Source: a virus. From it: a stretch of DNA of 64,000 nucleotides. The notes below the pieces were generated by a model, which was not told where the DNA came from, made no database searches, and saw only the letters and a list, made by a program, of their open reading frames with translations. Shown piece after piece: positions 3,981-59,504 of the stretch; within the stretch, counting starts at the first letter, position 1; each line of letters starts with the position of its first letter. The translations under genes and the position numbers were made by a program. The stretch is taken from positions 1 to 64,000 of IMG/VR virus record IMGVR_UViG_3300015242_000023. One strand, 5' to 3'.

Positions 3981-4063
3981 GGCCGGCTCCGCAGCCAATC
4001 GGAGACGGTGCTGGCCAGCAGGATCGCGGCCAGCAGGATGAGGATTGCCTCCATTTGGGTCAT
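3977..4063 (-). CDS. Single-span membrane peptide, 28 aa
   Basis: Overlaps the upstream gene by ATGA. The peptide is one hydrophobic helix (ILILLAAILLASTV, residues 6-19) with a basic C-terminus. Membrane micropeptides of this kind are common in phage early operons; role unknown. Confidence 0.45.
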   Translation of the reverse strand: MTQMEAILILLAAILLASTVSDWLRSRP

Positions 4064-4287
4064 GCCTGCCTCCATGCGTTGCTGACAGCGAGGAGGCGCA
4101 GGGCGAGACCGGTCAGGCGGGCAGTGGGAATGAACTTGGGCTTGAACCGGATCATGCCGACACCGTCATGCTGAATAAACTCCCAGTATTCGTGATGCGT
4201 ATAGGCATTCAGGATTGTTTGCCCTGGCTCCAGATGAACCGGGATTGCCTGCCCCGGCTCAATTCGCATCTTCGTCTGTCCCGCCAT
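4060..4287 (-). CDS. First gene of the leftward early operon, 75 aa
   Basis: Starts MAGQTKMRIEPGQ with AAGGGG 7-12 nt upstream, immediately behind the predicted leftward promoter. The protein is small, beta-rich and basic (KPKFIPTAR). As the first gene of an early leftward operon opposite a Cro-like gene it could be regulatory, but no DNA-binding motif is visible. Confidence 0.65.
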   Translation of the reverse strand: MAGQTKMRIEPGQAIPVHLEPGQTILNAYTHHEYWEFIQHDGVGMIRFKPKFIPTARLTGLALRLLAVSNAWRQA

Positions 4288-4306
4288 GATGATCCCCTTC
4301 GGCGCA

Positions 4307-4336
4307 TTAATACGCTCATCTGCTATTTTATGTCAA
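4307..4336 (-). promoter_or_regulatory. Leftward sigma70-type early promoter
   Basis: On the minus strand TTGACA (4331-4336) is followed after 18 nt by TATAAT-like TATTAA (4307-4312). The predicted start point at about 4300 leaves only a short leader before the ATG at 4287. The region also holds two copies of TGCTATTTT (4321 and 4345), which may be operator half-sites. Confidence 0.65.
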
Positions 4337-4343
4337 TGTCGAC

Positions 4344-4371
4344 TTGCTATTTTTTTTAGACGGCGTATTTT
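4344..4371 (+). promoter_or_regulatory. Rightward promoter for the Cro-like gene, probably leaderless transcript
   Basis: TTGCTA (4344-4349), 16-nt spacer, TATTTT (4366-4371). The ATG of the downstream gene is at 4379, where transcription would be expected to begin, and no ribosome binding site is present in between. This suggests a leaderless mRNA. Confidence 0.45.
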
Positions 4372-4378
4372 CTTCGCT

Positions 4379-4615
4379 ATGGACAATCCGATTGACACAT
4401 TGGTCCGCCGCATCGATGCCCATCTAAAGCGGACGGGCAAAAAAGCCACCAACTTCGGCATAGAAGTCCGGAGAAATCCCAGTTTGGTTCCTCGCCTCAG
4501 GAAGGGCATAGCGTCGGTTTCAACGATCATGGCGGTTGCCGAGTATCTGGATAAGATGGAAAAGGCAGAGCGCAGGAAGGCGCGAAAGACCGGGGGCAAG
4601 AATGGTCGACTTTGA
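4379..4615 (+). CDS. Cro-like small DNA-binding regulator, 78 aa
   Basis: Start chosen at MDNPIDTLVRRIDAHL, because upstream in-frame codons extend into the promoter. The region around residues 15-50 (KKATNFGIEVRRNPSLVPRLRKG) resembles the helix-turn-helix of small alphaproteobacterial Cro/CI-type regulators, where a FG..A...P..V..LR pattern is typical. The C-terminus is very basic. It is divergently placed from the leftward early operon, with promoter elements in between, and so probably sets the early transcription choice. The partner repressor is not identified. Confidence 0.65.
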   Translation: MDNPIDTLVRRIDAHLKRTGKKATNFGIEVRRNPSLVPRLRKGIASVSTIMAVAEYLDKMEKAERRKARKTGGKNGRL

Positions 4616-4916
4616 GACTGACGACGAAATGACCCAGCGTCTGTTTGATGACATGGGGGCATTCGTGAACGCTTGGGCCAACAAGAACTGCGACGGCATG
4701 CTGGCTGGCGAGACGGCGATCGGCGCCCTGCAGACGCATCTGGGCAACGTGATCGGCAATATCCCGTGCGCGCATTGTCGGGCGGTCCTGCTTGAAGACG
4801 TGATCCGCGAACTGGTGCGGGCGGCTGACGCCCCGCTTGTGGTCGCTGTCCATACCGACCCCGGCGCGGCTGCTGAGGCGGCCTTGGCGCTGATCGAGCC
4901 GCAAGGGCGGGCGTGA
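4602..4916 (+). CDS. Hypothetical acidic protein, 104 aa
   Basis: Start chosen at MVDFETDDEMTQRLFDDMG, which overlaps the regulator gene by 14 nt; the longer frame upstream is inside that gene. Contains a CAHC pair near residue 67 and a helical body. No domain recognised. Confidence 0.6.
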   Translation: MVDFETDDEMTQRLFDDMGAFVNAWANKNCDGMLAGETAIGALQTHLGNVIGNIPCAHCRAVLLEDVIRELVRAADAPLVVAVHTDPGAAAEAALALIEPQGRA

Positions 4917-5404
4917 TGCCGAGATGGCGCGAGCCTACTGCCAAAGACTATGACCGCCTGATAGCGTTCTTCGACGAACTCGGTCTCGCGGCCTTCCGGC
5001 CAATGCAGAGACAGTGCAAACGGGAGCGCAAGTCGCTGGTCATGCGGGAGAAGGCGCTGCGCCAACACCAGGATGTAGAATTCCAGCAACGTTTCCGGGG
5101 AGGGCGCGCGGCGGCTTTCCGGGACTGTGGCCGCGAGACGATCCGGCTGCAGAAGTTCCGGGAGAGCTTCCGAAAGGTGCCCCGGGCGTTACCGCCTATG
5201 ACGCCCGATCAGCTCCGCGAATACAAGCGCCTGCTCCACGAAGGCGCCAAGCGTCCCGACGCGCTCAACGTCATACTTTCCCCTCGCAATTCCTCCGGCG
5301 ACCACACTTCCCAGTCCACCGCCGGAGCCAAGCACCGTCCCCGGGTGCTGGTCGGGCCGCCTGCTTCCAACCCGGCAGGCGGCCCGAGAGACTTAGCCCC
5401 ATGA
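4916..5404 (+). CDS. Basic hypothetical protein, 162 aa
   Basis: The ATG shares one base with the upstream stop (TGATG). Very rich in Arg and Gln over residues 25-100, with a Pro/Ser-rich disordered tail. Could bind nucleic acid; function unknown. Confidence 0.55.
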   Translation: MPRWREPTAKDYDRLIAFFDELGLAAFRPMQRQCKRERKSLVMREKALRQHQDVEFQQRFRGGRAAAFRDCGRETIRLQKFRESFRKVPRALPPMTPDQLREYKRLLHEGAKRPDALNVILSPRNSSGDHTSQSTAGAKHRPRVLVGPPASNPAGGPRDLAP

Positions 5405-14516: not shown

Positions 14517-14710
14517 GCCACATGCGCGTCTGGAGCAACGGAAGCACCCTCTATTTCGCTGGCCAATTCTCGGCCGACGATGCCGCGTTCATTGAGCCGT
14601 TGGCCTTCCAATATGGCATGTCTCGTCCTGAGCAAGCGCACCAGCAGGCCACTAAACTCGCATGGGCGTTCAAGAGCATTTGCGAGCGCGTTGCCAAGGA
14701 CACCAAATGA
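14513..14710 (+). CDS. Small hypothetical protein, 65 aa
   Basis: Start at MSHMRVWSNGSTLYFAG from ATGA overlap with the zinc-ribbon gene. Two beta strands then a helix with a cysteine. A longer frame upstream crosses two genes. Unknown function. Confidence 0.6.
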   Translation: MSHMRVWSNGSTLYFAGQFSADDAAFIEPLAFQYGMSRPEQAHQQATKLAWAFKSICERVAKDTK

Positions 14711-15978
14711 ACGACATCTTTCAGCCCCCCGCCTACAACGATACGCCGCTCAGCCAGCCACCGACGGACGGCCGTATACAGACGCCGCAGATGGGGGCCC
14801 AGCAACTAACCCAGATCGGGGCGAACGCGGCCAAAAACGGCCTAGTCGACGTGGCTCGCGTCGCATTCACGCGCGCCGTGAGAGAGGAGCGACGTGGCGA
14901 TACCCTGGCAAACTTGGCCAACGCACTGCGGCAGCTTTGGCGGTTCGACGAGGCCAACAAGATCATCGATGAAGCGCTTCAATTCGCGCCCCAGGACGGC
15001 CGGGTGTGGGGCATCAAGGGCGTCACCATGCTGGACCAGAACCGGTCAACGGACGCCATCGCCGCCTTTCGAAACTCGCTGATGTGGGGCGGCGCCGCTC
15101 CCTTTACCAAGTTCGGCTTGGCTGAGGCGCAGCTCCATGCCGGCGACTTCGACCGCGGCCTGAGGGGCTACGAATCCCGGTTTGAGATAAACTCGCCTCG
15201 CCTTCATGGCCTCCCCCGGTGGCAGGGAGAACCATTGGGCGACAAGGTGCTGCTGGTCGAGGCCGAACAAGGCTTTGGCGACACTTTCATGTTTAGCCGC
15301 TTCCTGCCTCGCATCCCAGGGAACTATATCTTCAGCGTCCAAGCGCAGGCAGTGAGTCTGTTCGGACCGGAGGCGAAGCGGCTGGGCGAAGCAGTGCGCG
15401 CTGATTACTGGTGCCCTCTCATGAGTCTACCGCTGATCGTCGGCACCGACATCACGCCCGCGCTGGCTTTCCGGCCTAACCGCATCCTGCCGCTGACGGC
15501 GCGCGGCAAATTCAACATCGGCATTGTCTGGGCATCCAAGGCAGGAGGGTCCGGCACTCCCGAAGAAATGCGCCACGGCCTGCAGAAGTCATGCCCGATC
15601 GAGGCCTTCCTTGATCTTTGCGACATCGACGGCGTCCAACTGCACAGCCTGCAGTACGATCAGGATGCCAGCCTGATGACGATGGACCTCGTTAACCAAC
15701 TTCCCCAATACGACTTCCGCGACCAGGCCGCGCACATGCTCAACATGGACCTGATCATCAGCGTGGACACCGCACCGCTGCATCTGGCCGGGACGCTCGG
15801 GCGTCCGTGCATCGCGCTGTTGAACGTGGTTGGAAGCTGGCAATGGGGTTCTGGAGATACCACGCCTTGGTACAAATCAGTCCGGATCGTGCGGCAGCCA
15901 AAGCCGTTTGACTGGTCCGGAGCGATGGCCAAAGCGAAGGATATCGTGGTCGAGATGATGGGGGAGCACAAGCCATGA
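14707..15978 (+). CDS. TPR-glycosyltransferase (GT9/GT41-like), 423 aa
   Basis: N-terminal third (about residues 40-160) has tetratricopeptide-type helices (LANALRQLWRFDEANKII, WGIKGVTMLDQNRSTDAI). The rest is a GT-B glycosyltransferase: LLVEAEQGFGDTFMFSRFL, FNIGIVWASKAGG, DLIISVDTAPLHLAGTLG and WGSGDTTPWYKSVRI. The SVDTAPLHLAG motif is shared by ADP-heptose:LPS heptosyltransferases (GT9) and TPR-linked relatives of O-GlcNAc transferase. It is likely cytoplasmic, transferring a sugar to protein or glycolipid. HldE and HldD, which make ADP-heptose, are encoded 0.4-3 kb downstream in the same coupled operon, so heptose is the likely sugar; this is inference. Confidence 0.75.
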   Translation: MNDIFQPPAYNDTPLSQPPTDGRIQTPQMGAQQLTQIGANAAKNGLVDVARVAFTRAVREERRGDTLANLANALRQLWRFDEANKIIDEALQFAPQDGRVWGIKGVTMLDQNRSTDAIAAFRNSLMWGGAAPFTKFGLAEAQLHAGDFDRGLRGYESRFEINSPRLHGLPRWQGEPLGDKVLLVEAEQGFGDTFMFSRFLPRIPGNYIFSVQAQAVSLFGPEAKRLGEAVRADYWCPLMSLPLIVGTDITPALAFRPNRILPLTARGKFNIGIVWASKAGGSGTPEEMRHGLQKSCPIEAFLDLCDIDGVQLHSLQYDQDASLMTMDLVNQLPQYDFRDQAAHMLNMDLIISVDTAPLHLAGTLGRPCIALLNVVGSWQWGSGDTTPWYKSVRIVRQPKPFDWSGAMAKAKDIVVEMMGEHKP

Positions 15979-16169: not shown

Positions 16170-16381
16170 TCGGCGGCATCACCGAGCCGCCGCGCCGTTA
16201 TCTCGAACATGAATGGCATTGGCTTCACAGCGAGCGCGCATCCCGACCGGTGATCTCACAATGGATCAAGGGCGGTTGGTATAGCCCGGGTGAGCACGGC
16301 CCGATTTCCCCGCAGGAGATGTGGCGCCGCGGTTGGGCCTATCTGGGGCCTGTTCCAGTACCGCCAGGAGATTGGGGATGA
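16166..16381 (+). CDS. Small Trp-rich protein, 71 aa
   Basis: ATGA overlap. Seven tryptophans, many Pro, e.g. HEWHWLHSERASRP and WYSPGEHGPISPQEMW. Its stop overlaps the hldE start. Unknown function. Confidence 0.6.
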   Translation: MIGGITEPPRRYLEHEWHWLHSERASRPVISQWIKGGWYSPGEHGPISPQEMWRRGWAYLGPVPVPPGDWG

Positions 16382-17664
16382 TCGATTTCAGCAACGCGCG
16401 CGTCGCCGTCGTGGGCGACCTGATCGAGGACCATTGGATTTACGGCCGCGTCGATCGGCTGTCGCCCGAGGGGCCGTGGCCAGTGTTCCTGCCGGAGCGA
16501 ACGGTCGTGCAGATGGGCGGCGCGGCGAATGTGGCCGCCAACATGTACGCGCTGGGTGTGACGCCAGTGCAGATCGCCCCGAACCGAATGGCGATCAAGG
16601 AACGCTATGTCGTCGGCCGGCACCAGATGTTCCGCGTCGACCGGGAAAACACATCGAACATTTCGAGCCAGGAGATGATCCGCCTATTCATCGCTCTCAC
16701 GGAGGGCACCCAACAGCCGAATGTCGTGGTGCTGAGCGATTACGGGAAAGGCTGCTTTGGTGGCACCTTGGCGCAGTGCATCATTGAATGGTGCATGCCC
16801 CGCGGCATCGTCACCGTCGTCGATCCTAAGGGAACCGATTGGACCAAGTACGACGGTGCCACCGTCATTACGCCGAACTATGCCGAGTGGAAGGCCCATC
16901 AGCGCGGCGGCCGCGCGCGTCTGCTCGTGACCAAGGGTGAGCACGGCATAGAACTGCAGGGTGATGGCAGCGACGGCAGGCATTGGATCAACATCCCCGC
17001 TGCCGGCCCGAAGGTGGTCGATATCGTCGGCGCCGGCGACGTGGTCGTTGCTGCGCTCGCCCTGGCGTTGGGTGCAGGCTATTCCATGGAAGAAGCAGCC
17101 CGCATCGCCAACGCCGCAGCCGGTGTCGCCGTAGGCAAGCCCGGCACGTCTGTGTGCACGATCGACGAACTGAGAGGTGCTTGGGTAAGCGGGTGTAGCT
17201 CAGCGGTAGAGCAGCGGTCTCCAAAACCGACGACGGGGGTTCGAGTCCCTCCGCCCGCGCCACTCGTTGGAATCGCCAACGGCTGTTTCGACACCCTGCA
17301 TGCCGGCCACGTCGAGCTCCTGCAGAAGGCAAGGGCGCGCTGCGACCGACTGATAGTCGCCATCAATAGCGATGCATCGACGCGACACCTAAAGGGCCCT
17401 CTGCGGCCGGTAAATCCAATGGCTGTGCGCTGCGCCATGCTCCAGGCATTGGCATGCGTCGGTGAGGTCCGCGTCTACGATCAGGAGGAGGATCTGGTCG
17501 ACATCATCAAGGAGGTAGGGGCCTCGGTGATCTTCAAGGGCGTCGACTACGAGGGCCACCCCACCATCACCGGCAGCGATATCGCCCGCGTCGAGATCAT
17601 CAAGACCGAGTTCAAATCGTCCACCGCGCAGGAAGTCTGCAAGGCTCGAGGAGTTTGGTCTTGA
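16378..17664 (+). CDS. hldE: HldE: heptose-7-phosphate kinase / heptose-1-phosphate adenylyltransferase, 428 aa, with in-frame tRNA
   Basis: Bifunctional enzyme of ADP-heptose synthesis. Residues 1-268 are a PfkB/ribokinase-type kinase: QMGGAANVAANMYALG near 45-60 and the anion-hole motif DIVGAGD with GAGD at 218-221. Residues 297-428 are the nucleotidyltransferase: GCFDTLHAGH with HAGH at 308-311, then AINSDAS and GPLRPVNP. Compared with E. coli HldE (about 477 aa) the shortening is mainly in the linker. Residues 271-295 are encoded by a complete tRNA-Trp gene read in frame. No usable start codon lies between the tRNA and the HAGH motif, so both domains need one uninterrupted message. Start at 16378 by TGATG/ATGA coupling. 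Confidence 0.85.
   Translation: MIDFSNARVAVVGDLIEDHWIYGRVDRLSPEGPWPVFLPERTVVQMGGAANVAANMYALGVTPVQIAPNRMAIKERYVVGRHQMFRVDRENTSNISSQEMIRLFIALTEGTQQPNVVVLSDYGKGCFGGTLAQCIIEWCMPRGIVTVVDPKGTDWTKYDGATVITPNYAEWKAHQRGGRARLLVTKGEHGIELQGDGSDGRHWINIPAAGPKVVDIVGAGDVVVAALALALGAGYSMEEAARIANAAAGVAVGKPGTSVCTIDELRGAWVSGCSSAVEQRSPKPTTGVRVPPPAPLVGIANGCFDTLHAGHVELLQKARARCDRLIVAINSDASTRHLKGPLRPVNPMAVRCAMLQALACVGEVRVYDQEEDLVDIIKEVGASVIFKGVDYEGHPTITGSDIARVEIIKTEFKSSTAQEVCKARGVWS
17189..17262 (+). tRNA. tRNA-Trp (CCA anticodon), inside hldE
   Basis: Full cloverleaf. The acceptor stem GCGGGTG/CGCCCGC has 7 pairs including one T-G. The D arm is GCTC/GAGC. The anticodon stem is GCGGT/ACCGA, with one G-A mismatch at the outer pair, and its loop CTCCAAA holds anticodon CCA at 17221-17223. 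The T arm is GGGGG/CCCTC with loop TTCGAGT. The discriminator is G and CCA is encoded at 17260-17262. U33 is present. It lies on the same strand and in the reading frame of hldE, in the linker between its two domains. Confidence 0.9.
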
Positions 17665-17861
17665 ATCTGATGGAAGGACTGGCGCGACAGTTAGTGCGAG
17701 TTGCCAAGGCCCGGCGGCACTATGAGGACATCGGGCCGAGCGGCGCATTCGGGCTGATGATGATCGATCGAGCCCTTGAGATGGCATGTGTGGCTGCGGG
17801 CAGCAATGACATTGTCGAGATGATGCGCGCTCACGAGGACCTAAAAGGCATCAGCGAATGA
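17661..17861 (+). CDS. Small helical protein, 66 aa, TTG start
   Basis: The best start is the TTG at 17661: it overlaps the hldE stop (TTGA) and has GAGGAG 7 nt upstream, whereas the ATG at 17670 is 16 nt from that site. Product helical and mildly hydrophobic. Coupled to hldD by ATGA. Unknown function. Confidence 0.55.
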   Translation: MNLMEGLARQLVRVAKARRHYEDIGPSGAFGLMMIDRALEMACVAAGSNDIVEMMRAHEDLKGISE

Positions 17862-18661
17862 TCATTTGCACCGGAGTGTCCGGATTCATCGGACGCCATC
17901 TGACCAAAGCGCTCAATGCTGATTGGGTTCCGGGCCAAGTGCCTCTTTTGCGCGAGGCGGACGCGCTGATCCATCTCGGCGGCATATCCGATACCACATG
18001 CAAGGACGAGCAACGGCTGATCGAGGCGAATGTGAAGCTGACGTTGGAACTCGCCGACTCGGCCGCCGACGCTGGAATTCCGTTCATCTATGCGAGCAGC
18101 GCCAGCATTTACGGAAATGGACGCGGACCGCTCAATGCCTACGCCCGATCGAAGGCGGCGATTGATGCCTCCATGGCGAACCGATCGGACGAATGGTATG
18201 GGCTGCGGCTCTTCAATGTCTACGGCGACGGTGAGGGCAAGAAGGGCGACCAGGCCAGCATGGTCTACAAGGCCGTCTGGTCGCATCGGAATGGCAAGAC
18301 GCCCGAATTTTTCACACCGAAAGCGCGCCGCGATTATGTCCACGTCAGCGACGTCGTGAAGGTGATCCTGTGGTTCGTGCGCACTTGCCCACGGAGTGGC
18401 GTCTATGACGTCGGGACTGGCGAATCGACATCGATCAAGGAAGTCTGCGATCTGGCTCAAGACATATCGCCATTCATTAGACGGATGGCGGCGACCGAGA
18501 TGAGGGGAATGTACAAGCATCCGTCTCTCACCGAAATACCCGTGCCGTCGCACATGTTCTGCGCCTGCCAGATGGACACCAAGGCCGATCTCACCCGGCT
18601 GCGCAGCATCGGCTATGACGCACCGTTTCTGTCTCTCGAGGAAGGAATCAAACTGCTATGA
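17858..18661 (+). CDS. hldD: HldD-like ADP-heptose 6-epimerase (SDR family), 267 aa
   Basis: Extended short-chain dehydrogenase/epimerase. The NAD(P)-binding glycine motif is TGVSGFIG near residues 5-12, then ALIHLGGISDTT, the Ser region YASSASIYG, and the catalytic pair in NAYARSK. LRLFNVYGDGE and DYVHVSDVV follow, as in HldD, which turns ADP-D-glycero-heptose into ADP-L-glycero-heptose. About 40 residues shorter than E. coli HldD. Its place two genes after hldE supports the call, although a related UDP-sugar epimerase is possible. Start from ATGA overlap. Confidence 0.75.
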   Translation: MIICTGVSGFIGRHLTKALNADWVPGQVPLLREADALIHLGGISDTTCKDEQRLIEANVKLTLELADSAADAGIPFIYASSASIYGNGRGPLNAYARSKAAIDASMANRSDEWYGLRLFNVYGDGEGKKGDQASMVYKAVWSHRNGKTPEFFTPKARRDYVHVSDVVKVILWFVRTCPRSGVYDVGTGESTSIKEVCDLAQDISPFIRRMAATEMRGMYKHPSLTEIPVPSHMFCACQMDTKADLTRLRSIGYDAPFLSLEEGIKLL

Positions 18662-21851: not shown

Positions 21852-22529
21852 CTAGCCCTCCGGCAACAGGCGATTATTCTTTGATCGATTCTCTGCTCCC
21901 GGTAGTACCTGAAGATTCCACGGGACGTGCAACCCTCGGAAGTTTCGGCCGCGCAATGGATGAATGTGATCAACGTGGTGCTCGATGCCGGTCTGCGTTT
22001 CTAGCGCCACAGCGACCTCGTAAAATTCAGAAATCTGGGCGAGATGAATCGCCGTCAGCCATGGCGGTTGTGCTGCGCGGCGAGCGCCTTGATATTTACG
22101 AGATTTCAATCGGCCCGGCACGGGGTTCGCTTGATATGAGTTGCGATTTCTAGCCCTTATCTTGTCAGCGTTTGCAGCGTAATAAAGGCGGTCCCAGTCT
22201 GGCCTTTTTGCCCGCCACGCCTTTGTGGCAGCCACAGCCTTCTCGGGATTCTTTTTGAGCCATTTCTTATAGGCCGCCCGATATTTTTCTCGGTTATTTG
22301 CTCTATAGGCGTTTGCGATAGGCCGCACTCGCCCCGGATTGGCGATGGCATCCTTGCGCGCCCACTCCCGTCCATAAGCCCTGACCTTTTCTTGGTTCTT
22401 GGCTTTCCATGCTGCCATCGTCGCGCCACTGCATGCGCAGCATTGATCACGATAGCCGTCAGCCGTTCCTTTTCTGCGCCAAAAGGCAGAAAATTCCTTA
22501 GTCTCGCCGCAGGTTGAGCACGTCTTCAT
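21852..22529 (-). CDS. HNH homing endonuclease, 225 aa
   Basis: N-terminal CSTCGETKEF and CCACS zinc knuckle. A central array of helical AT-hook-like basic units follows (NREKYRAAYKKWLKKNPEKA in parts, residues 75-140). The C-terminal HNH core is EHHVDHIHPL, HVPWNLQVLPGAENRSK. Inserted between the tail collar and ejection genes, 6 nt from the upstream gene. A free-standing mobile endonuclease. Confidence 0.85.
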   Translation of the reverse strand: MKTCSTCGETKEFSAFWRRKGTADGYRDQCCACSGATMAAWKAKNQEKVRAYGREWARKDAIANPGRVRPIANAYRANNREKYRAAYKKWLKKNPEKAVAATKAWRAKRPDWDRLYYAANADKIRARNRNSYQANPVPGRLKSRKYQGARRAAQPPWLTAIHLAQISEFYEVAVALETQTGIEHHVDHIHPLRGRNFRGLHVPWNLQVLPGAENRSKNNRLLPEG

Positions 22530-22535
22530 TTCACC

Positions 22536-25500
22536 TCAGATAGCCCTTCCCGCGACCGCAAGCGCGCGGGCAATCATATTATCGTGGGCACCAAGCAGTT
22601 CCTTGGTCTTGGCTTGGTCACCACGCCGAGCCTTCGCCACCAACTCGGTCAAATGCTGTGCCGCCCGCGCGTGATTCACGACCGCCCCGCCGCTCGCGCG
22701 CCCTTCGCGCTTCTTTTTTCCGGTCTCAAGGCCCGGCTGGGCGAAGTAGGGCGAATTTTCAAAGGCACCGTTCACCCGCGCTAGCCACGTTGCATCACCC
22801 ACATTTTCAGCACCGTGGCGTAGCATGCGCATGCCAATCTGCGGGTCGACGATACCGGCGGCGTACATCTGGTTGATGTTGTTGATGCCGCGGGCCTTCA
22901 GGTTACGCGCCAGTGTAGAGGCGAAGTGCGTGCCGACGGCGCCGGCTACGGTGGACAATCCAGCGTCGGATCCCATCAGCAGGCCGCCCAGAAGCCCCAG
23001 TCCGCCGCCGCTAATTCCAGGCATCATCGATTGCGCTGGCATCGGCGCCATGCGCTGTTCCATGAGTTTCAAGCGGTGTGCGGTGTCCGAACCGGGGATG
23101 CCGGACTGCATGCGCGCGCGCGTCTGGGTCTGTCGAGAGATGTCATCTGACAACTGAGACATGATCTTGAGTTGATCGGGCTGGAAGAGTTCTGGCAGCG
23201 ATGCGCTGTAGCCTTCGATCAGTTTCTTGAAATGCGGCCCGAAATTACCGGTCGCGCCGGCTGAAGCCTCGGCCTGTTTCATCATGTGGTCGACGGCGAG
23301 TTTCTTCAGACCCTCGATCACGCCAGGGTCCCCGGCCGCCTCTTTCACCAGATGCCGAAGCTGCAATGGGCCGGTCTGCTTGTTGCCGAGTACATTGCCC
23401 ATGATTTGGGTCGCGTGGTCCGCGTTCGCCGCGCCTACGAATTTGGACGCCAAAGCCGATTGAGAATTCGCCAAGTTGCTGAACTGCCCAGAGAACCCCG
23501 GCTCAACCTCGTCGATCGCGCGCAGCGACTGCTTGTACTTGTTCGTCCACGACGCCAGCGCCTTGGGGTTCAACTGGCCGTCCTTCATGATGTCACGCAA
23601 CGACATGACAGCGGCATCCTTGACCGCCTGCAGCATCTCCGGGCTATCGTTGGCAGCCTTCAGCACCTCGCGAGTGATGGCGTAGCCGTCCTGGCCGCCC
23701 GGGAATGCCGCCCGCGGCACGGCCGAATCACGCACGTTCCATGCTTCGCCGTTCTTGCCGGCCTGAAGCAATTTGCCCACAGAACCCTGGCGATAGGTCT
23801 CGCCGAGGTATTTCTGGGCGTCGTTGGCCGCCTTCAGTGCCGCAACGGCGGCGGGGCCCATCTGTTCAGTTCCCGGTACTGCTCCACCGCCTGGAGCTCC
23901 TCCACCAGGCCCTGCGCCCGCGCCTTGCGCTCCAGGTGCTGGAGAAATTCCGCCCGTTCCGCCGGGGCCATCGGCTCCAGCACCTGTCGCAACACCTTGC
24001 CCTTCGCTAGCCTGTCGGGCTGCCTGCCACTCATCTCGTTGTCGTTCGAGGGCACTCTGGAGAGTTCCATTCGGGTCCATCTGTCCTTTGGCGACAGCCT
24101 CCGCTTCTGCTTTCGATCGGTTGGTGACGGCGTTCTCCAAGTCTCCCCAGATCGCGCCCTTCAATGCCTTCAAGCGGCCAAGTTCGCGCGTCGCCTTCGG
24201 ATCCGACTTGGCGGCCGCAAGCGCCTCGTTGACGTCTGTCATGTAGGATCGAAGGTCGCTGAACTTGACCTCGTCCGGCATTTCCTTCGCCAACGTGGTG
24301 AAGGCGTCGTCGGGCTTCTTGGTCTCATAACCGGGCTTGTGCTTGGTGACGTCGCTGGCCTTCTTCTTCAGGCCGGGGATCAACAGTGTCTGGTCGCCGA
24401 ATTGCTCCTCGAGCAGGTCATAGAGCGCCGTCCGCGCCTGCTCGGCGGTCTTCCGACCTTCCTGCAGCGGCTTGCGCACGCCAGCGCCGACCTCATCCGG
24501 GTGGACGCCAGATGGGAGCGCCTGATCGACCTGATCCTCTAGGTCACGCAGGTACTGGCCGAATTTCGCCTGTGGCTCGAGACCGGTCGCCGCCGGATCG
24601 ACGGTGCTGCGCAGGGCCTTCTCGCGCGCAGCACCGCGGGCCGCGTCCTGGCCCATGATCTGCTGCCGCGCGCCCTCGTTCGCCATCGTGGTGACGAGCT
24701 CGCCGCTGGCCAGTTCCCGGTTTCCCGAGGCCTCAGCGATCCGCGGCGTGGCGCCTGGCTCCGATCTCTGCCAGTCCGGCATATCTTCATAGGTCTTCAG
24801 GGCATTATCGTAGGCCTCGCGCACCGCAGTGCCGGCCGTCCCAGCAGGAGCACCAACCTTGATGTCCTTGGCTATCTGGGCCGATGCGCGCTGACGGGCT
24901 TCTTCCTTCGTGATGGGCGGCAGGAATTTACGCCGCGCCGATATGCCGGTTTCAGCCGCTACCGGGCCCAGCATCGACGCGCCGGCGATCACGAATGGGT
25001 TGTCGGTGTGATGCGCCGCAGCCTCTCCGGAGACTCCGCCGATACCTCCCACAATGGCAGGACGAGCCGCTGCAGCCAGCCCAAGGCCCTTCTCCGTCAA
25101 AGTGGGGGCCTCCAGGCCAATCCTGGGGACAGCCCTAGTCGCGGTCCCCGCCATGGCACCGCTCGGGAGCGCAGCCTCGGTGAAGGCCCGTCCGACCTTG
25201 CCCGCTGTGGTCGTGGGTTCATATTCGCCCACCACGGGCTTCACATAGCGGTCATATATCTCACCGCCGCTCATCGGCTGCCATTCGCCGGCCTGGCGCT
25301 TGGCTTCCGCATTTTCCTTGATCCCTTTGAGTATTTCCCGCCATGAGCGCTTGTCCCAAATCGATCGGACGCCAGCCTGTCCCAAGTCGAGCATATCCAC
25401 GACATCGCCGGCGAGGCCCAGCCCAGGGAGATGCGTGGCACCCTTCAAGACTGAAGTGCCTAAATTCTTGGCCGTTCCGGCAATCCAACTGTCATCCGGC

Positions 25501-25613
25501 TTATTGCCCAGAACACCGCCTTGACCCGGTCTATCGATTGTCTCGAAATCGTCAGCCATCCCTGATGGCGCGTAGGGCTGGAAATCGTCGGCGATCTTTG
25601 GAGGGTCTGCCAT
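22536..25613 (-). CDS. Large internal virion/ejection protein, 1025 aa
   Basis: Long, mostly helical protein with Pro-rich start (MADPPKIADDFQPYAPS). A central Gly/Pro-rich hinge (residues about 545-585) is followed by a helical C-terminal half. It ends with REGRASGGAVVNHARAAQHL, a motif often seen at the C-terminus of podophage internal proteins. Coupled by TGATG to the 1786-aa protein upstream, and the pair occupy the position of the T7 gp15/gp16 ejection proteins. No enzymatic motif recognised. A membrane or DNA-ejection role is inferred from position. Confidence 0.65.
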   Translation of the reverse strand: MADPPKIADDFQPYAPSGMADDFETIDRPGQGGVLGNKPDDSWIAGTAKNLGTSVLKGATHLPGLGLAGDVVDMLDLGQAGVRSIWDKRSWREILKGIKENAEAKRQAGEWQPMSGGEIYDRYVKPVVGEYEPTTTAGKVGRAFTEAALPSGAMAGTATRAVPRIGLEAPTLTEKGLGLAAAARPAIVGGIGGVSGEAAAHHTDNPFVIAGASMLGPVAAETGISARRKFLPPITKEEARQRASAQIAKDIKVGAPAGTAGTAVREAYDNALKTYEDMPDWQRSEPGATPRIAEASGNRELASGELVTTMANEGARQQIMGQDAARGAAREKALRSTVDPAATGLEPQAKFGQYLRDLEDQVDQALPSGVHPDEVGAGVRKPLQEGRKTAEQARTALYDLLEEQFGDQTLLIPGLKKKASDVTKHKPGYETKKPDDAFTTLAKEMPDEVKFSDLRSYMTDVNEALAAAKSDPKATRELGRLKALKGAIWGDLENAVTNRSKAEAEAVAKGQMDPNGTLQSALERQRDEWQAARQASEGQGVATGAGADGPGGTGGISPAPGAQGAGAGPGGGAPGGGAVPGTEQMGPAAVAALKAANDAQKYLGETYRQGSVGKLLQAGKNGEAWNVRDSAVPRAAFPGGQDGYAITREVLKAANDSPEMLQAVKDAAVMSLRDIMKDGQLNPKALASWTNKYKQSLRAIDEVEPGFSGQFSNLANSQSALASKFVGAANADHATQIMGNVLGNKQTGPLQLRHLVKEAAGDPGVIEGLKKLAVDHMMKQAEASAGATGNFGPHFKKLIEGYSASLPELFQPDQLKIMSQLSDDISRQTQTRARMQSGIPGSDTAHRLKLMEQRMAPMPAQSMMPGISGGGLGLLGGLLMGSDAGLSTVAGAVGTHFASTLARNLKARGINNINQMYAAGIVDPQIGMRMLRHGAENVGDATWLARVNGAFENSPYFAQPGLETGKKKREGRASGGAVVNHARAAQHLTELVAKARRGDQAKTKELLGAHDNMIARALAVAGRAI

Positions 25614-44905: not shown

Positions 44906-45433
44906 CTAGTTTGCGTCGTCGCTGGTAGGGACCTGCGAATAGATGATCGTCACCTGAGCATACGGAGCCCCGGTCGGGGCCGTGCCGCTCATCGCGATAC
45001 TGGCCGCCACAGTGCCTATCTGCAAGTCCGCACTGCCGGTGACGCTCTGGTTTGTCATTGCGGCCAACTGCGCCGCCGTGAAGGTCGGGCGCGTGCGGCC
45101 GGTGGCCGTCATGCTGACGTTGCTGGCATAGGTCGTGGCGCCCGCAGTGGCACCGACCGACAGCGTAGCGCCCACGCCGGCGCCAAAGCCCGTCAGGGTG
45201 TCCACGATGATGTCGATGATGTTGGCCCGGCCGCCGCCCAGGCTAGCCGATGGCAGATACAGGGTCGCAGAGACCGTCCCGGTGCTGCCGCTGGCGCCCG
45301 CGAGCGTCATCGACTGCTGCAGGACAACAGGTCCCTGGTTGAAGGGATAGCTCGTCGGCGGCGAGCCGGTCGCCCCAACTGCATCTTTGTTGGGACCGAC
45401 CAGCAGGGGGCCGGAGAGAGTGCTCTTGGCCAT
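44906..45433 (-). CDS. Virion protein, 175 aa
   Basis: MAKSTLSGPLLVGPNKDAVG start, then Gly/Ala/Thr/Ser-rich beta pattern, ending VTIIYSQVPTSDDAN. Proteins that start STLSGPL... close to the capsid gene are common minor head proteins. One-base overlap with the HNH gene. Confidence 0.6.
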   Translation of the reverse strand: MAKSTLSGPLLVGPNKDAVGATGSPPTSYPFNQGPVVLQQSMTLAGASGSTGTVSATLYLPSASLGGGRANIIDIIVDTLTGFGAGVGATLSVGATAGATTYASNVSMTATGRTRPTFTAAQLAAMTNQSVTGSADLQIGTVAASIAMSGTAPTGAPYAQVTIIYSQVPTSDDAN

Positions 45434-46125
45434 CAGGCGCGCTCCTTGACGACAGTGAGGGGCGCCGCGCCAGCGCGACCATTGTGGCGGTCCAGATAGC
45501 GAATGGCGGACAGAAGACGATCGCGATCCTCGCCGAGCTTACCAAGACCAGTATTGCACGCCACGCACAGTAGGCCGCGAAGCGTTCCCGTCGTGTGATC
45601 GTGGTCGACGGCGAGCGCCTTCAGCTTGCCGCTGCGCATCTCTGTTTCGGGCTGCTGACAAATGGCACAGACGCCGCCTTGCGCTACAAGCATTGCACCG
45701 TATTCGGCCAGCGTGATGCCGAACATCTTGAGGAGATCGAGTTCCTTGGCGCGATCAGGATTGGCCTTACGCCACGCCTTACCATAGGCCGAACGGCCTT
45801 CCTTGGTGCGGTGATCGAACCCGTTGGCGCCGGCGACGAGCATCAGATTAGTGACGCGACAGTTGTGTCTATTCTTGTCGCGGAAGGTGAGTTTGCCCGT
45901 CGGCAATTCGCCGTAGTGGACAGCCCATGCAATGCGCTGCGCCGTGAAATCCCAGCCATCAATGCTGATCATCCGATGGCCGTTGGATGCCAACTCAATC
46001 CCCACTTCGCGCCCTTCTTCGCATCCCCCACCCACACGCGACATCCGCCAGAAGAATCGTCCTTCTTCGGCGTCGTATCGGATGAGATCGCGAATGCGAT
46101 CTGCGGTGATGCTGTGTGTCTTCAT
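45433..46125 (-). CDS. HNH (endonuclease VII-like) homing endonuclease, 230 aa
   Basis: N-terminal part reads like the HNH/AP2-type homing endonucleases (FFWRMSRVGGG, MISIDGWDFTAQRIAWAVHY). The C-terminal 90 residues match the recombination endonuclease VII family: CAICQQPE, LAVDHDHTTGTLRGLLC and ACNTGLGKL. Sits between the capsid gene and a small head gene: a free-standing mobile element in an essential region. Confidence 0.85.
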   Translation of the reverse strand: MKTHSITADRIRDLIRYDAEEGRFFWRMSRVGGGCEEGREVGIELASNGHRMISIDGWDFTAQRIAWAVHYGELPTGKLTFRDKNRHNCRVTNLMLVAGANGFDHRTKEGRSAYGKAWRKANPDRAKELDLLKMFGITLAEYGAMLVAQGGVCAICQQPETEMRSGKLKALAVDHDHTTGTLRGLLCVACNTGLGKLGEDRDRLLSAIRYLDRHNGRAGAAPLTVVKERA

Positions 46126-46146: not shown

Positions 46147-47061
46147 TCACGAAGTGGGGAAGATGCCGTAGATAGCACGGGGGTTATAATACCCAAAGCT
46201 GTACCGAGCATACCCCTTCACGAGGAGGTTGTCCGTGGTGAAGTCGACCTGCATGTCGGTCTCGAAGGGGATGCGATCCATGTATGAGAGGCCGTCGATG
46301 TTGGTGAGGAGGAACCACGCGAAGGCCGAGGTCAGGTAGTCGTTCGTCATGTACGACTCGGGCAGGCCGCCCGCGGTCGTGTGGATGGCGTTGACGTCGT
46401 TGTCGGCGGTGCCGGGCCGCAACTCGGTCTTCAGCAGGCGGATGGCAACGGGCTCGAGCTGCGGCGGGATCAGCAGCTTGCGCGCCCGGGCGTACATCTT
46501 GAGGCCGGCCTGGTCGCGGAAGTTGGTGCGGACCGAGATCATCGAGTTGAGCAGCGTGGCCTCGTTCAGGCCCACTTGCGTCGTCGGCGTGTTGGCGTAG
46601 GTGCCGCCGTCGATCGGATGGGCCGGCGAGCACAGCGCCACGCCGTCGCCGCCGATCGCGTTGATGTAGGTGGTCGCGGTGTTGAGGAGGTTCGCGCCGA
46701 AGATTTCCTTGGTCTGCTGGAAGCTCTCGAGCAGGCCGAGATTGGCGGGATGGAACTGGGTCTTGTAGAGGTTGTCGTCGATGGCCTTGCGGGTCATCGC
46801 ATAGCCAAGAGCAATCTCGGTGTGCTCCTGGTTGTAGACGTACCGCTCGCCGGCCTGGTTGTCGAAAGAGGTCTGGCCGCCTTCGGTCTTGAGCTGCGCC
46901 AGCCCTAGGTAACGCATTTCGGCGGTGCGCTCCAACGCCATGTTGGATGTGTGCCGCGTGTAGATGCGATCGTACTGGGGCGGGATCTGTTCGTACTTCC
47001 CGGTCACCCCACGGAGGCCGGGGAGGAGCAGATCCTTGATCTGGGCGAGATTGACGGCCAT
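46147..47061 (-). CDS. Major capsid protein, Mu gpT-like, 304 aa
   Basis: Likely major head protein: DRIYTRHTSNMALERTAEMR, YVYNQEHTEIALGYAMTRKA, FGANLLNTATTYINAIGGDG, VALCSPAHPIDGGTYANTP and FETDMQVDFTTDNLLVKGYA. The order of a helical start, AMTRKAIDD..Y, the SxxHP loop and a terminal strand is typical of Mu-like gpT capsid proteins. About 300 aa, the usual size. Follows a decoration-type gene and has scaffold and portal genes behind it. Confidence 0.8.
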   Translation of the reverse strand: MAVNLAQIKDLLLPGLRGVTGKYEQIPPQYDRIYTRHTSNMALERTAEMRYLGLAQLKTEGGQTSFDNQAGERYVYNQEHTEIALGYAMTRKAIDDNLYKTQFHPANLGLLESFQQTKEIFGANLLNTATTYINAIGGDGVALCSPAHPIDGGTYANTPTTQVGLNEATLLNSMISVRTNFRDQAGLKMYARARKLLIPPQLEPVAIRLLKTELRPGTADNDVNAIHTTAGGLPESYMTNDYLTSAFAWFLLTNIDGLSYMDRIPFETDMQVDFTTDNLLVKGYARYSFGYYNPRAIYGIFPTS

Positions 47062-47878: not shown

Positions 47879-47954
47879 GGCTGCCGGGAGGCGGAATTGA
47901 ACCGACGACCTGAACCCTGGCGGGGTCCCGCTCTACCGACTGAGCTATCCCGAT
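47879..47954 (-). pseudogene. Degenerate tRNA-Gly(GCC)-like sequence
   Basis: All cloverleaf parts have canonical lengths: acceptor ATCGGGA/TCCCGGC, D arm GCTC/GAGC, anticodon arm GGACC/GGTTC with loop CCGCCAG, T arm GTCGG/CCGCC with TTCAATT. The defects are C instead of U at position 33, an A-C pair at the end of the acceptor, a T-C mismatch in the T stem, and GCC in place of the encoded CCA. Anticodon would be GCC. Possibly a decayed tRNA or an attachment-site remnant. Confidence 0.6.
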
Positions 47955-50344: not shown

Positions 50345-50953
50345 TTAGGCGGTTGGTTCGGGGGCGACAGCCGCGGGAGGAGCCGCAAACCCGTCGCCCC
50401 CTGTTCGCGTCAGGGCCAAGCCAGACTCTGCCGCGCATCCCGTCTCCCGTTTTAAGAGATTATATTTCTGCTGCCGATCACTCTGGGCTGCCCGACGCTC
50501 GGGTGTCCATTTCTTGCCGGCCAGACTTAGTGCGGCCCGCTGCTCGGCAGTCAGATTCCGGTTCCGCTTGGCCAAACTCATTTTGGCGCGAGCTTCTGGC
50601 GTGTGCTTCCGGCCCGGCCGGTCTGTTTTACTGGCCGCTATCCTCTTTCGGCATTCAAGAGAGTGCTTCCATCCGGAAACGCCTTCTCCTCCCTCTGTCA
50701 TATTGCAAAGATCGGCGAGCGGATAAAAGGCGATCCTTCCCTGCTCCATCGTGAACGCTGCTTCTTCGGTGAGATTTTGGGCGACAATCCGCACATCTAC
50801 TGCCATGCCCAGCGCGATCAACTCCGATTGTATTGCGCGATGGTGTCGGCTGCGCCCGCGCATTCTCCAAGCGCGTCGGCCGTTGCCCTTTCCCACGTAG
50901 AAGCAGGCGTCGGTATCGGGGCGCCAGTGCTCGTAGACGTAGAAACTATCCAT
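50345..50953 (-). CDS. GIY-YIG homing endonuclease with NUMOD3 repeats, 202 aa
   Basis: Opens with FYVYEHWRPDTDACFYVGKG, the GIY-YIG core (YVY...YVGKG), then RHHRAIQSELIALGM and the catalytic Glu region EEAAFTMEQGRIAF. The C-terminal half has NUMOD3-like repeats (HTPEARAKMSLAKRNRN and LTAEQRAALSLAGKKWTPE). The last 20 residues are Pro/Ala-rich (GFAAPPAAVAPEPTA). A second GIY-YIG element besides that at 11.7 kb, inserted between structural genes. Confidence 0.85.
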   Translation of the reverse strand: MDSFYVYEHWRPDTDACFYVGKGNGRRAWRMRGRSRHHRAIQSELIALGMAVDVRIVAQNLTEEAAFTMEQGRIAFYPLADLCNMTEGGEGVSGWKHSLECRKRIAASKTDRPGRKHTPEARAKMSLAKRNRNLTAEQRAALSLAGKKWTPERRAAQSDRQQKYNLLKRETGCAAESGLALTRTGGDGFAAPPAAVAPEPTA

Positions 50954-50977: not shown

Positions 50978-51838
50978 TCACCCTACGCGCTCCTGTAACT
51001 TGATCTTCTGCAGCCGGCCCTCACCGCTGCCGGCGCCTGCCGTCATGCCACCGCTGGCGCGCTTGCTGCGCTTCTGGAGCGCGATCTTTTCGAGACGGCC
51101 CTCACCCCCGCCTGCACCATAGTGCATCACCGGGCCGCCATCCTTGCGTCCCATGGGCATCGGCGGACCTCCTGGCGGCATCGGCGGCGGCCCACCCGGA
51201 GGCGGACCACCAGCCATCGGTCCGGGAGGAGGCATTGGCGGCGGCATCGGCTTGATCGGTCCCTGCGGGCCTTGCTGCATCGGATCGGGCTTCGGCCCAC
51301 CGCCGGCGATCACGATGTTGATCGTCGCAGCCTTGCCGCCGTTCTTGCGCGCAGCACGACCGCCCTTCTTGTAGCCGCCCGTGTGATACGAGCCAAAAGC
51401 CGCCTTGTTCGCGCCGGCCGTGTCGATCGTGCTCTCAGCGCCGGGCGTGTCGGCTCGGCCTCCATCGGCGCGCTTGCTGCGCCACGTCGCATAGTTGCGC
51501 GCATATTGGTCCTTCTCCGAATTGCTCATGGCATCGGAGTCTGATGTTAATTTTGCAGCAACAGTCTTTACGGTATCCCCGTAGGCTTTTGATCCGACGC
51601 GCACCTTGCGATCGGCCCGCTGCGGCCCGCGGTCCTTCTGGATCGCGACAGGACCGCCGTGGTTTCGGTAGATGCGGGGACGGACCGGGCGCGCTCCGGT
51701 CTTGCGATCGGCGTTCAGGGCCTCGGTGGGCTCCCACGAGCTGCCGTCCACGCGCTTGTGCGGATCATTGCTCGTGCTCGTCAGACGAATTGCCTTGGCC
51801 CGCATGTCTGCGCGGGCCTTTTTGCTCATCTCTGACAT
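50978..51838 (-). CDS. Basic disordered head-cluster protein with GGRAARKNGG motif, 286 aa
   Basis: Helical basic N-terminus (MSEMSKKARADMRAKAIRLT), then long low-complexity regions: Gly/Pro/Met-rich (residues 195-235) and KKGGRAARKNGGKAAT plus RKDGGPV and SKRASGGMTAGAG. Same Gly-rich basic motif seen in the ejection proteins and the 127-aa protein. Possibly a capsid-internal or DNA-binding protein. Confidence 0.6.
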   Translation of the reverse strand: MSEMSKKARADMRAKAIRLTSTSNDPHKRVDGSSWEPTEALNADRKTGARPVRPRIYRNHGGPVAIQKDRGPQRADRKVRVGSKAYGDTVKTVAAKLTSDSDAMSNSEKDQYARNYATWRSKRADGGRADTPGAESTIDTAGANKAAFGSYHTGGYKKGGRAARKNGGKAATINIVIAGGGPKPDPMQQGPQGPIKPMPPPMPPPGPMAGGPPPGGPPPMPPGGPPMPMGRKDGGPVMHYGAGGGEGRLEKIALQKRSKRASGGMTAGAGSGEGRLQKIKLQERVG

Positions 51839-56726: not shown

Positions 56727-59504
56727 CTAACCTGGGTACAGCGGGCCTGGTGGTTTGCCCTTGTGCTGCATCTGCTCCTCAGCCTCGGCCATCCGCTCCT
56801 CCCCACGCACCAAGATCCCTGTGTCGCGAAGGTAGCGAAGCGCCTGCGATGTCGTGTCCGTCAAATCATCCCGTCGCGCATTCGGAAATGTACCACATTC
56901 TGCAATCACCGCCTCGGCGAACGGCCGGTCCGGCGCATAGACCATCCGCTCCTCAAAGATGTTCTGGACCGAATATAGCCTCGCCACCTTGCTGTTCTTG
57001 GTGTAGCCGCCGCCGGCGATCGGCCGCATCACCCGGATCCCGTAGTTCGCCCTGGTCGCGAACAGTCTCCGCAGCTCCTGAGCAACCGAAATGCCCGCCG
57101 CCTTGTCCTCGATCAGCAGTACGTCGACCTTGAACTGCTGGCACGTCTTATGGACACGGTTCACCAAGTCGTGGATCTCAAGATGGTCGCTCCACGAATG
57201 GCACAGCATCACCCGGTTGGATGTCTCGACGTAGGCCCGCTGGAACACGCCCGGCGCCGTCTGCACATGCTGGGCCACGACATCTCCTTGGAAGACGCCC
57301 CACACTGTCAACGCCGACGGGTCGTTCAGCGTGTTCTCGGTGTAGGCCGTGTCCAAGCTGGCCACGAGATATTCCATCGGCGGGTACTGGAGCTGATACC
57401 GCGGTTGCTGCGTCACCGGGTCCAGCTCTTCCCCGCCAGGCGGCCACAACTGCCACCAGTCACGCTTGATGATGCCGCCGCCGGCCGGCTCAGGACGTTG
57501 CTCTAATTGGCCCGCTGCACGCCACGCTTTCAGGCTACGCTCAAGAGCCTTCACCTCAGCCTCAGGGAAGCGCTCAGGGAAGAGCAATTCGCCCTCTTTG
57601 GTGCGCGGATCATTCCAACCGATCGACGTGACGAACGAGCGCGTTTTCTCGTAGTGCATTGGGAGGCAGAGATGCTGCCATCTCTCGGGCTCTTTGGCGA
57701 GAATATGCCCAGACAAATCTAGTTCGCCTAGGCGCTGTTGTACGGCGACGATTGCACCAGTCCTCGGATCATTCAGACGCGTCGACATAGCGCCATCCCA
57801 CCAGTCCTCGTTTGTCGATTGGATGATCGCTTCTGATAGAACCTCACGAGCGTTGTTCGCGTCATCCACAATTATGACGGAAGCGCCCTCGCCTGTGACT
57901 CCGGCTTCAACCGCAGTGATCAGCGATTCGCCGCCTTCGCTGTTGCTGAAGCGAACCTTTTGGTCCTGCTCCGGCAGGATGTGAAAGCGATCACCCCACT
58001 TGCGGCGATACCACGTTGACTTCATCAACCGGCGCCGTTTCACGCTGTCTCTGATCGCAAGCGAATAGGCGTATGACGCATGAAGGAAGGGAACACCTGG
58101 GCCGCTCGTGGGACCGCGAAACGATTGCGCCCACACCCAGGCCGGAAACGCCACAGAGACGATCGAAGAATTATGGACCGCAAAACCATTGGCGACGAAG
58201 CTGTGATCTTCATCAACTGTCAGGCAGATGCACTCTGCAGTCCCTGCGTCTTCGATATTCTCCACCACATCGCCGACAACAAGATGGTCAAAGTCGAAAC
58301 GGCGACGTCGCGCGAATGCCAAGCGGTCGTTTTTCTTGTGATGAATGTCGATGAGATTTGCGAATCGCCAGCAATTATCCTGATCGGAAATAGACAGCGA
58401 ATAGGATGTGTACGTATCCCCTTGTATCTTGGTCTTAATGGCCGACGTTTTCTGGCGAAGAATAGAATCAATTCCCAAGCGCAACAGAAGCGTCTGCATT
58501 TGGAGCAAGAAAGCCTTGTTTACGCTGTCACATCCAATGTGGAGATCATCCCGCTGTGAGCCGTTTCTTTTAGCTCCTTTAAATGAGACAAATCCATCGC
58601 AGGCCCAAAATGCACCGATGAAGTGTTGCGCAATTTCATTTGTCCCCTCAAGGACAGCCTGCGGAATCATCTTGGTGTAGGAATTTCCTCCCCACAGCTT
58701 ATGTCTTTCCATGAACTTACGAACGGGACCGACATCATTCTTATTCGGCCGCCTCATTGTTCCCGGGAGCGCACGCAGAGCAATGCGGCGCAAAATACCG
58801 CCCGTCTTTGCCATTTCATAGGCTTGATCAGTTCCCTGAAATCCCGCTGCGCTTATCACCAAGTGAATGTCAGTGGCCTCAATATCATCCGCCACTGTGA
58901 TGTTCGGTGTCCCCTGACAATTTCCGTCTCCAATCAAATAGCCCAATAGTCTCGCCACTTCCGGCGTGATGGAGGGCGATCCGCTAGAGCCCCTTTGTGG
59001 GATCAATCCAATTACATCTTCTTTGGAAATACTCTGAAGTTCAGTCCATCCCATTGGAGTGAGGAAGGGATGATCTGGCGCGGCAACAATCTCACGACCG
59101 CGCCTCGTTTTAAGATGGAGGACGGGAATCACCCCCTGCTTGTGTATCTCCGTCACACGACGAAAGCGCGCCAAGTGAGTAAGGACATGCTCCCCTTCGC
59201 GGACATGCCTCAATTCAACGAGACCACGCTCATAGGTGGAAACAAGAGTGTCCGCCGATACGGGTTTGCCCATTCTTGGCGGGATATTTATCAGCAGCCG
59301 TTTGATCTCGCCATCAGCTACGGCCTCGAGATGTTCGGCCAAGGCATCAATCACCCAACCATGCACGTACGGCGCCGGGTCGATGAACCTCCAAGCGTAT
59401 CGCAGGAAGGTCGCCAAGCTCTCCTCGCACTCGACACGCTCCAGCTCGTTCAAATGCCAGTCGGCGTCGATCCGCGAGCCTTCGTATTCAATCAGAGTCG
59501 GCAT
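56727..59504 (-). CDS. terL: Terminase large subunit interrupted by an intein, 925 aa (560 aa after splicing)
   Basis: Packaging ATPase and nuclease. Residues 1-80 are the N-extein ending NIPPRMGK. Residues 81-445 are the intein. The C-extein restarts SSIVSVAFPAWVWAQ, so that splicing rebuilds the Walker A motif PPRMGKSS. Walker B is VIIVDDAN near 543. The C-terminal nuclease has SLDTAYTENT near 714 and LLIEDKAAG near 797, the acidic residues of the RNase H-like site. Without splicing the ATPase loop is broken, so activity depends on protein splicing. Start at 59504 overlaps the upstream stop by one base. Confidence 0.9.
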   Translation of the reverse strand: MPTLIEYEGSRIDADWHLNELERVECEESLATFLRYAWRFIDPAPYVHGWVIDALAEHLEAVADGEIKRLLINIPPRMGKPVSADTLVSTYERGLVELRHVREGEHVLTHLARFRRVTEIHKQGVIPVLHLKTRRGREIVAAPDHPFLTPMGWTELQSISKEDVIGLIPQRGSSGSPSITPEVARLLGYLIGDGNCQGTPNITVADDIEATDIHLVISAAGFQGTDQAYEMAKTGGILRRIALRALPGTMRRPNKNDVGPVRKFMERHKLWGGNSYTKMIPQAVLEGTNEIAQHFIGAFWACDGFVSFKGAKRNGSQRDDLHIGCDSVNKAFLLQMQTLLLRLGIDSILRQKTSAIKTKIQGDTYTSYSLSISDQDNCWRFANLIDIHHKKNDRLAFARRRRFDFDHLVVGDVVENIEDAGTAECICLTVDEDHSFVANGFAVHNSSIVSVAFPAWVWAQSFRGPTSGPGVPFLHASYAYSLAIRDSVKRRRLMKSTWYRRKWGDRFHILPEQDQKVRFSNSEGGESLITAVEAGVTGEGASVIIVDDANNAREVLSEAIIQSTNEDWWDGAMSTRLNDPRTGAIVAVQQRLGELDLSGHILAKEPERWQHLCLPMHYEKTRSFVTSIGWNDPRTKEGELLFPERFPEAEVKALERSLKAWRAAGQLEQRPEPAGGGIIKRDWWQLWPPGGEELDPVTQQPRYQLQYPPMEYLVASLDTAYTENTLNDPSALTVWGVFQGDVVAQHVQTAPGVFQRAYVETSNRVMLCHSWSDHLEIHDLVNRVHKTCQQFKVDVLLIEDKAAGISVAQELRRLFATRANYGIRVMRPIAGGGYTKNSKVARLYSVQNIFEERMVYAPDRPFAEAVIAECGTFPNARRDDLTDTTSQALRYLRDTGILVRGEERMAEAEEQMQHKGKPPGPLYPG
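58170..59264 (-). mobile_element. Class-3-like intein with LAGLIDADG endonuclease in TerL Walker A
   Basis: Residues 81-445 (365 aa). Block A is PVSADTLVSTYERG with Pro as the first residue instead of Cys/Ser. Block B is APDHPFLTPMGW, with His and Trp153. Block F/G is CICLTVDEDHSFVANG ending FAVHN, with Cys427 where class 1 inteins have Asp. The first C-extein residue is Ser446. The homing endonuclease domain shows two LAGLIDADG motifs, LLGYLIGDGNC (about 187-196) and FIGAFWACDGFVS (about 295-307), so it may home into intein-free terminase genes. Confidence 0.85.

Follow-up and report, generated by a model that had tools for sequence, protein, structure and literature searches.

A complete tRNA-Trp gene in frame within an hldE-like gene of an uncultured tailed phage

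Results

The window, the whole stretch of DNA analyzed here (64,000 nt), covers the first 64 kb of a virus record of 69,807 bases. It carries an hldE-like ORF of 428 codons (16378-17664, plus strand; ORF calling, Pfam and NCBIfam) that encodes a kinase domain, a tRNA-coded hinge and an adenylyltransferase domain. The ORF starts with an ATG at 16378, which has AGGAG 8 nt upstream and overlaps the stop codon of the preceding gene (ATGA), and it runs uninterrupted across a tRNA-Trp(CCA) gene with an encoded CCA (17189-17262, plus strand) to the TGA at 17664. The hldE-like gene sits in a sugar gene cluster with overlapping starts. Upstream lies a gene for a protein with TPR and glycosyltransferase family 9 (heptosyltransferase) matches (14662-15978, plus strand; PF01075, 2.4e-07), and downstream a nucleotide-sugar epimerase gene (17858-18661, plus strand; PF01370, 1.6e-26; phrog_540), whose start overlaps the stop of the preceding ORF (ATGA). 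The heptosyltransferase-like gene on one side and the epimerase gene on the other suggest a cluster for the probable synthesis and transfer of a heptose-like sugar. Scans for promoter and terminator signals around the tRNA-hldE region stayed at chance level.

ARAGORN called a tRNA-Trp(cca) at exactly 17189-17262 on the plus strand, and the Rfam tRNA model (RF00005) matched the same positions over its full length (66.8 bits, E 2.4e-12; gathering score 29). This confirmed the complete tRNA-Trp(CCA) that a sequence-only reading of the DNA had placed on the coding strand of hldE. Besides a cloverleaf above the gathering score, it has a seven-pair acceptor stem and the CCA anticodon, discriminator G73 and encoded CCA of isotype Trp. 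G27 and A43 are unpaired, which leaves a four-pair anticodon stem instead of the usual (non-obligatory) five pairs. The missing pair does not exclude the gene from the tRNA-Trp class, because pair 27-43 is absent in 5 of 11 phage tRNA-Trp (the one in the window included) vs. 33 of 192 other tRNAs in a small, unplanned comparison. The G1 acceptor end is present in other phage tRNA-Trp too. The closest tRNAs in the phage collection are tRNA-Trp of alphaproteobacterial phages, the best being that of Ruegeria phage RpAliso (87.7%); between the two, a pair of acceptor base pairs has changed on both sides with pairing preserved. The folding energy of the tRNA alone was ordinary relative to shuffled sequences (z -0.33), which is no argument against a tRNA. 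A second tRNA gene in the window, tRNA-Gly(GCC) (47882-47954, minus strand; 46 bits, no CCA, acceptor end unpaired), is located beside the major capsid gene, between structural genes.

The first base of the tRNA falls on the second position of codon 271, codons 272-295 (GCSSAVEQRSPKPTTGVRVPPPAP) consist wholly of tRNA sequence, and the CCA of the tRNA is read as Pro295. In-frame translation of the tRNA within HldE, previously assigned to residues 271-295, therefore stands, with the tRNA beginning inside codon 271. Among the three sense frames of the tRNA, that of the ORF is the single stop-free one. Past the tRNA, an in-frame ATG, GTG or TTG comes no earlier than residue 348, which lies downstream of the HxGH motif (308-311), as expected from the earlier statement that no usable start follows the tRNA. 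On this ground we rejected a separate downstream adenylyltransferase gene; the second domain therefore needs read-through of the tRNA, barring a non-standard start. Phage tRNAs crossed by an open frame are not uncommon as such: of 203 in the loci retrieved, 4, the window tRNA included, had a frame that stayed open for 80 codons or more to each side. Among these four, the window tRNA alone is shown to be flanked by known domains of a single enzyme.

Residues 1-268 (16378-17181, plus strand) make up a heptose-7-phosphate-kinase-like (PfkB) domain (TIGR02198, 1.3e-67; Foldseek), and residues 297-420 (17266-17637, plus strand) a heptose-1-phosphate-adenylyltransferase-like domain with the HxGH motif (TIGR02199, 1.7e-30; PF01467, 1.6e-16). 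The rfaE_dom_I match ends at residue 268 (profile position 313 of 315) and the rfaE_dom_II match begins at residue 297 (profile position 13); PfkB and CTP_transf_like both scored over the Pfam cut-offs. Motif residues that are invariant in the aligned relatives are retained in both domains, and the adenylyltransferase domain keeps its third-position G+C. With motifs kept and Pfam and NCBIfam matches on each side, the domains flanking the tRNA are intact, as the sequence-only reading had described them. The top Foldseek match was B. cenocepacia HldA (4e8y, E 1.8e-24), which the sequence search also ranked first. The protein thus has the bifunctional layout of HldE, a PfkB kinase and an HxGH nucleotidyltransferase domain in one chain, and PF01467 matched once in the whole record, so that no second copy of the nucleotidyltransferase domain was found there. 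We call it HldE-like because the whole-protein NCBIfam match (NF008454; 1.7e-81, 274 bits) lies below the equivalog cut-off of 521 bits. An AlphaFold2 model (alignment with 41 viral relatives; mean pLDDT 86) has two confident domains with a disordered tRNA-coded hinge between them, and pLDDT fell below 50 at residues 276-291 alone. The tRNA-coded segment is predicted to form a helix end and then a disordered hinge. Given an intact in-frame tRNA, two intact domains and no start after the tRNA, one transcript must serve both products, in agreement with the earlier proposal.

The virus is a tailed phage according to family matches for portal, terminase, capsid, tail fibre and endolysin, and its source is environmental DNA alone. 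The nearest terminases come from phages from metagenomes; among named phages, they are those of a Manatee Spring Caudoviricetes record and Roseobacter phages CRP-901/902. A contig of 36,697 bases (IMGVR_UViG_3300012924_000016) is 100% identical to the window over 13,284 bases, the tRNA-in-hldE arrangement included, and a further contig of the same metagenome matches another part of the record at 100% identity over 8.8 kb. A check for a stop or frameshift at the tRNA was negative: the hldE-like ORF is undisturbed in either of two contigs. Two near-duplicate stretches (881-1640 and record positions 68455-69214; 93.8% over 760 bases) were noticed near both record ends, in an exonuclease-like gene region. 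The terminase ORF (56727-59504, minus strand; 925 aa) is much longer than most relatives (matches of ∼530 codons, spanning the whole query) and likely contains an intein or similar insert.

We compared linker length, measured from the end of the kinase to the NGCFD strand, in 79 fused HldE proteins, nearly all viral. Two viral HldE loci (L063 and L066, near 4001-5113) were left out of the count, as a stop-to-stop read gave a 7-codon frame at the match start. The linker measured 10-14 residues in 74 of the 79 proteins; four had bacterial-type linkers of 36-45 residues, and no other linker in the comparison held a tRNA-like insert. The window linker has 38 residues (13 + 25); without 25 codons (75 nt) it would have 13, like those of L013-L019. 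The closest HldE homologue of the window protein has ∼41% identity, and in a tree the window protein is on a long branch among proteins with long linkers (L005 and L010) and with 13-residue linkers (L013, L015, and L017). The simplest history would be a 75-nt in-frame insertion of the tRNA into an already fused, compact viral HldE. Alternatively, the tRNA may have replaced a longer bacterial-type linker, since the window protein has no close homologue and is placed in the tree among both linker types. The sequence-only reading had the tRNA replacing the linker of cellular HldE, which is not the best reading of a 13-aa viral linker with 25 codons added. Survival of the frame through the insertion would be only mild evidence of selection, since by reasoning an insert of random phase and length keeps the frame about 1 time in 9 (1/3 × 1/3).

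Searches for further cases found no tRNA in the 59 HldE loci of viral relatives scanned with ARAGORN. A pattern combining the T-arm with NGCFD matched this virus alone among 2.9 million viral contigs, and its nine matches in 84,980 prokaryotic genomes included no tRNA before a nucleotidyltransferase domain; the pattern is exact, so that variant T-arms or NGVFD proteins would escape it. A second, alignment-based scan of the viral contigs returned the same relatives and nothing closer. HldE was not found in 50 records with related terminases, nor the epimerase in the related-terminase records searched, which in both cases are mostly short fragments. Similar phage tRNAs lay under an annotated CDS in 0 of a 60-row spread sample, a weak result as pipelines often drop a CDS over tRNAs. 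In a 735-kb uncultured phage (L089, LR756501.1), a six-tRNA array including tRNA-Trp is present ∼2 kb from an HldE-like kinase on the opposite strand, probably by coincidence. A partial literature search found no earlier report of an intact in-frame tRNA inside an ORF.

In E. coli, overexpression of a tRNA-Trp(CCA) with the C27A change, which leaves 27-43 unpaired, raised UGA readthrough ∼2.5-fold, and a tRNA-Thr derivative is helped in reading stop codons by a G27-A43 mismatch of natural origin (PMC13092985). By analogy, the four-pair anticodon stem might let the window tRNA-Trp read UGA. TGA is a normal stop in the phage (24 of 46 ORFs), and reading on in frame past TGA stops gives extensions (median 41 codons) that do not exceed those past TAG or TAA; genome-wide UGA recoding was rejected as unsupported on these two counts. 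Three TGA-ending genes on the minus strand (22536-25613, 46147-47061, and 50978-51838) are followed 6-24 nt later, in the same frame, by homing-type endonuclease ORFs (21852-22529, 45433-46125, and 50345-50953, respectively). Readthrough would join each gene to its endonuclease; the layout is possibly due to chance, in-frame neighbours being common in the genome.

Discussion

We consider an in-frame tRNA insertion into the HldE hinge, with unregulated dual use of the transcript, to be the best explanation of this locus, and we favor it with modest confidence. A tRNA-Trp gene of phage type, 74 nt with one further nucleotide, would have entered a compact viral HldE that was already fused, within its 13-residue hinge. 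The frame would have stayed open by virtue of the one stop-free sense frame in the tRNA and an insert length that is a multiple of three, and the tRNA-coded peptide would serve as a longer flexible hinge. A canonical tRNA within a transcript is a substrate of RNase P. Ribosomes reading through the sugar-cluster transcript would produce full-length HldE; alternatively, RNase P and 3' processing would excise the tRNA-Trp and leave a non-stop kinase message. Translating ribosomes would unfold the tRNA and RNase P would cut at 17189, so that any single RNA molecule would yield either full-length HldE or tRNA-Trp. Full-length message might be kept scarce by RNase P cleavage. The tRNA, the ORF with its domains, the linker lengths and the recurrence of the sequence in a second contig are observed, and from them we infer the insertion event, the production of both products and their mutual exclusivity. 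A more specific form of this proposal is tentative: a functional tRNA-Trp would be excised from an mRNA that, when left uncut, encodes a working two-domain enzyme with a tRNA-coded hinge, competition between ribosomes and RNase P would set the balance, and the tRNA might also read UGA.

Other explanations differ in which product they dispense with. The tRNA may be a working gene of recent insertion and full-length HldE dispensable, the open frame being a leftover and the tRNA (perhaps with the kinase) the sole product. RNase P is efficient on canonical tRNAs, the arrangement was found in no other virus, and HldE was not found in the 50 mostly fragmentary related-terminase records, so that it may be dispensable. 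However, the second domain retains its active-site motifs and third-position G+C, and neither contig has a stop or frameshift; we regard this explanation as unlikely. Still less probable is the converse, a tRNA that is no longer processed or charged and is kept as a protein hinge alone. Translation through the region would presumably compete with tRNA folding, and the unpaired G27-A43 in the anticodon stem would fit a relic, but the high covariance-model score and encoded CCA argue against one, and both the unpaired 27-43 and the G1 acceptor end occur in other phage tRNA-Trp. The sequence-only reading had suggested a switch between tRNA supply and ADP-heptose synthesis; in a regulated form of it, ribosome traffic or RNase P access would decide the outcome. 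The position of the tRNA makes the products mutually exclusive per transcript, as a switch would have it; with no promoter or terminator signal above chance nearby and the arrangement in no other virus searched, regulation of this kind was not upheld and appears highly improbable.

We give very little credence to the tRNA as an attachment or fusion junction (an attP-like site or a gene fusion). Archaeal "suicidal" integrases do carry an in-frame translated tRNA-derived att site (PMC8371274), but neither a tyrosine nor a serine recombinase domain (PF00589 and PF00239) was found in the 69.8-kb record, the tRNA-bearing gene is not an integrase, and tRNA-free fused HldE is common in viruses. The earlier idea that the tRNA marks a recombination junction at which two genes were fused fails on the same evidence, fused HldE without a tRNA being usual in the retrieved viral relatives, and fusion at the tRNA was rejected in view of their compact 10-14 aa linkers. 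Among the retrieved viral relatives the tRNA-free fused form is the rule, which speaks against fusion at the tRNA, although cyanophages have split genes. An assembly chimera is scarcely credible. The sequence is all metagenomic, yet two contigs of different lengths are 100% identical over 13.3 kb, which makes a one-off or random chimera unlikely, with the limit that the samples are possibly related or contain the same population.

Rickettsia palindromic elements are structured DNA inserted in frame at tolerant sites of protein genes. The in-frame insertion is alike here, although those elements are repetitive and the insert in the window is a tRNA gene. Domain order, motifs and sequence are shared with bacterial HldE (RfaE) and compact viral fused HldE, and the short-linker layout of the latter, which had no tRNA in the scanned loci, resembles the window protein minus the tRNA. 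The window protein differs from HldE in a kinase that is shorter at two places and in scores under the NCBIfam equivalog cut-offs. The tRNA-Trp of Ruegeria phage RpAliso and of Caulobacter phages have the same isotype, an encoded CCA and up to 87.7% identity to that of the window. As here, the archaeal suicidal integrases (SSV1, pTN3, and pT26-2) place in-frame tRNA-derived sequence in a viral or plasmid gene (PMC8371274). In those systems a partial tRNA gene is the att site of a recombinase, whereas in the window the tRNA gene is complete, CCA included, and lies in the gene of a sugar enzyme, and no recombinase was found; with PF00589 absent from the record and a kinase plus nucleotidyltransferase as the protein, it does not belong to that class. 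Phage tRNA-dependent lysogeny gives a tRNA gene a role beyond codon supply and requires an integrase; its tRNA is not described within a coding gene, unlike that of the window (PMC10865867).

Should both products be made, genes of this kind would be lost under annotation rules that remove an ORF wherever it covers a tRNA, which calls for caution. How translation and RNase P compete for a single RNA would be directly measurable. The locus would also be a clear natural case of an entire tRNA gene that is protein-coding in the same orientation, and it would show how a compact genome can gain a tRNA without extra intergenic sequence.
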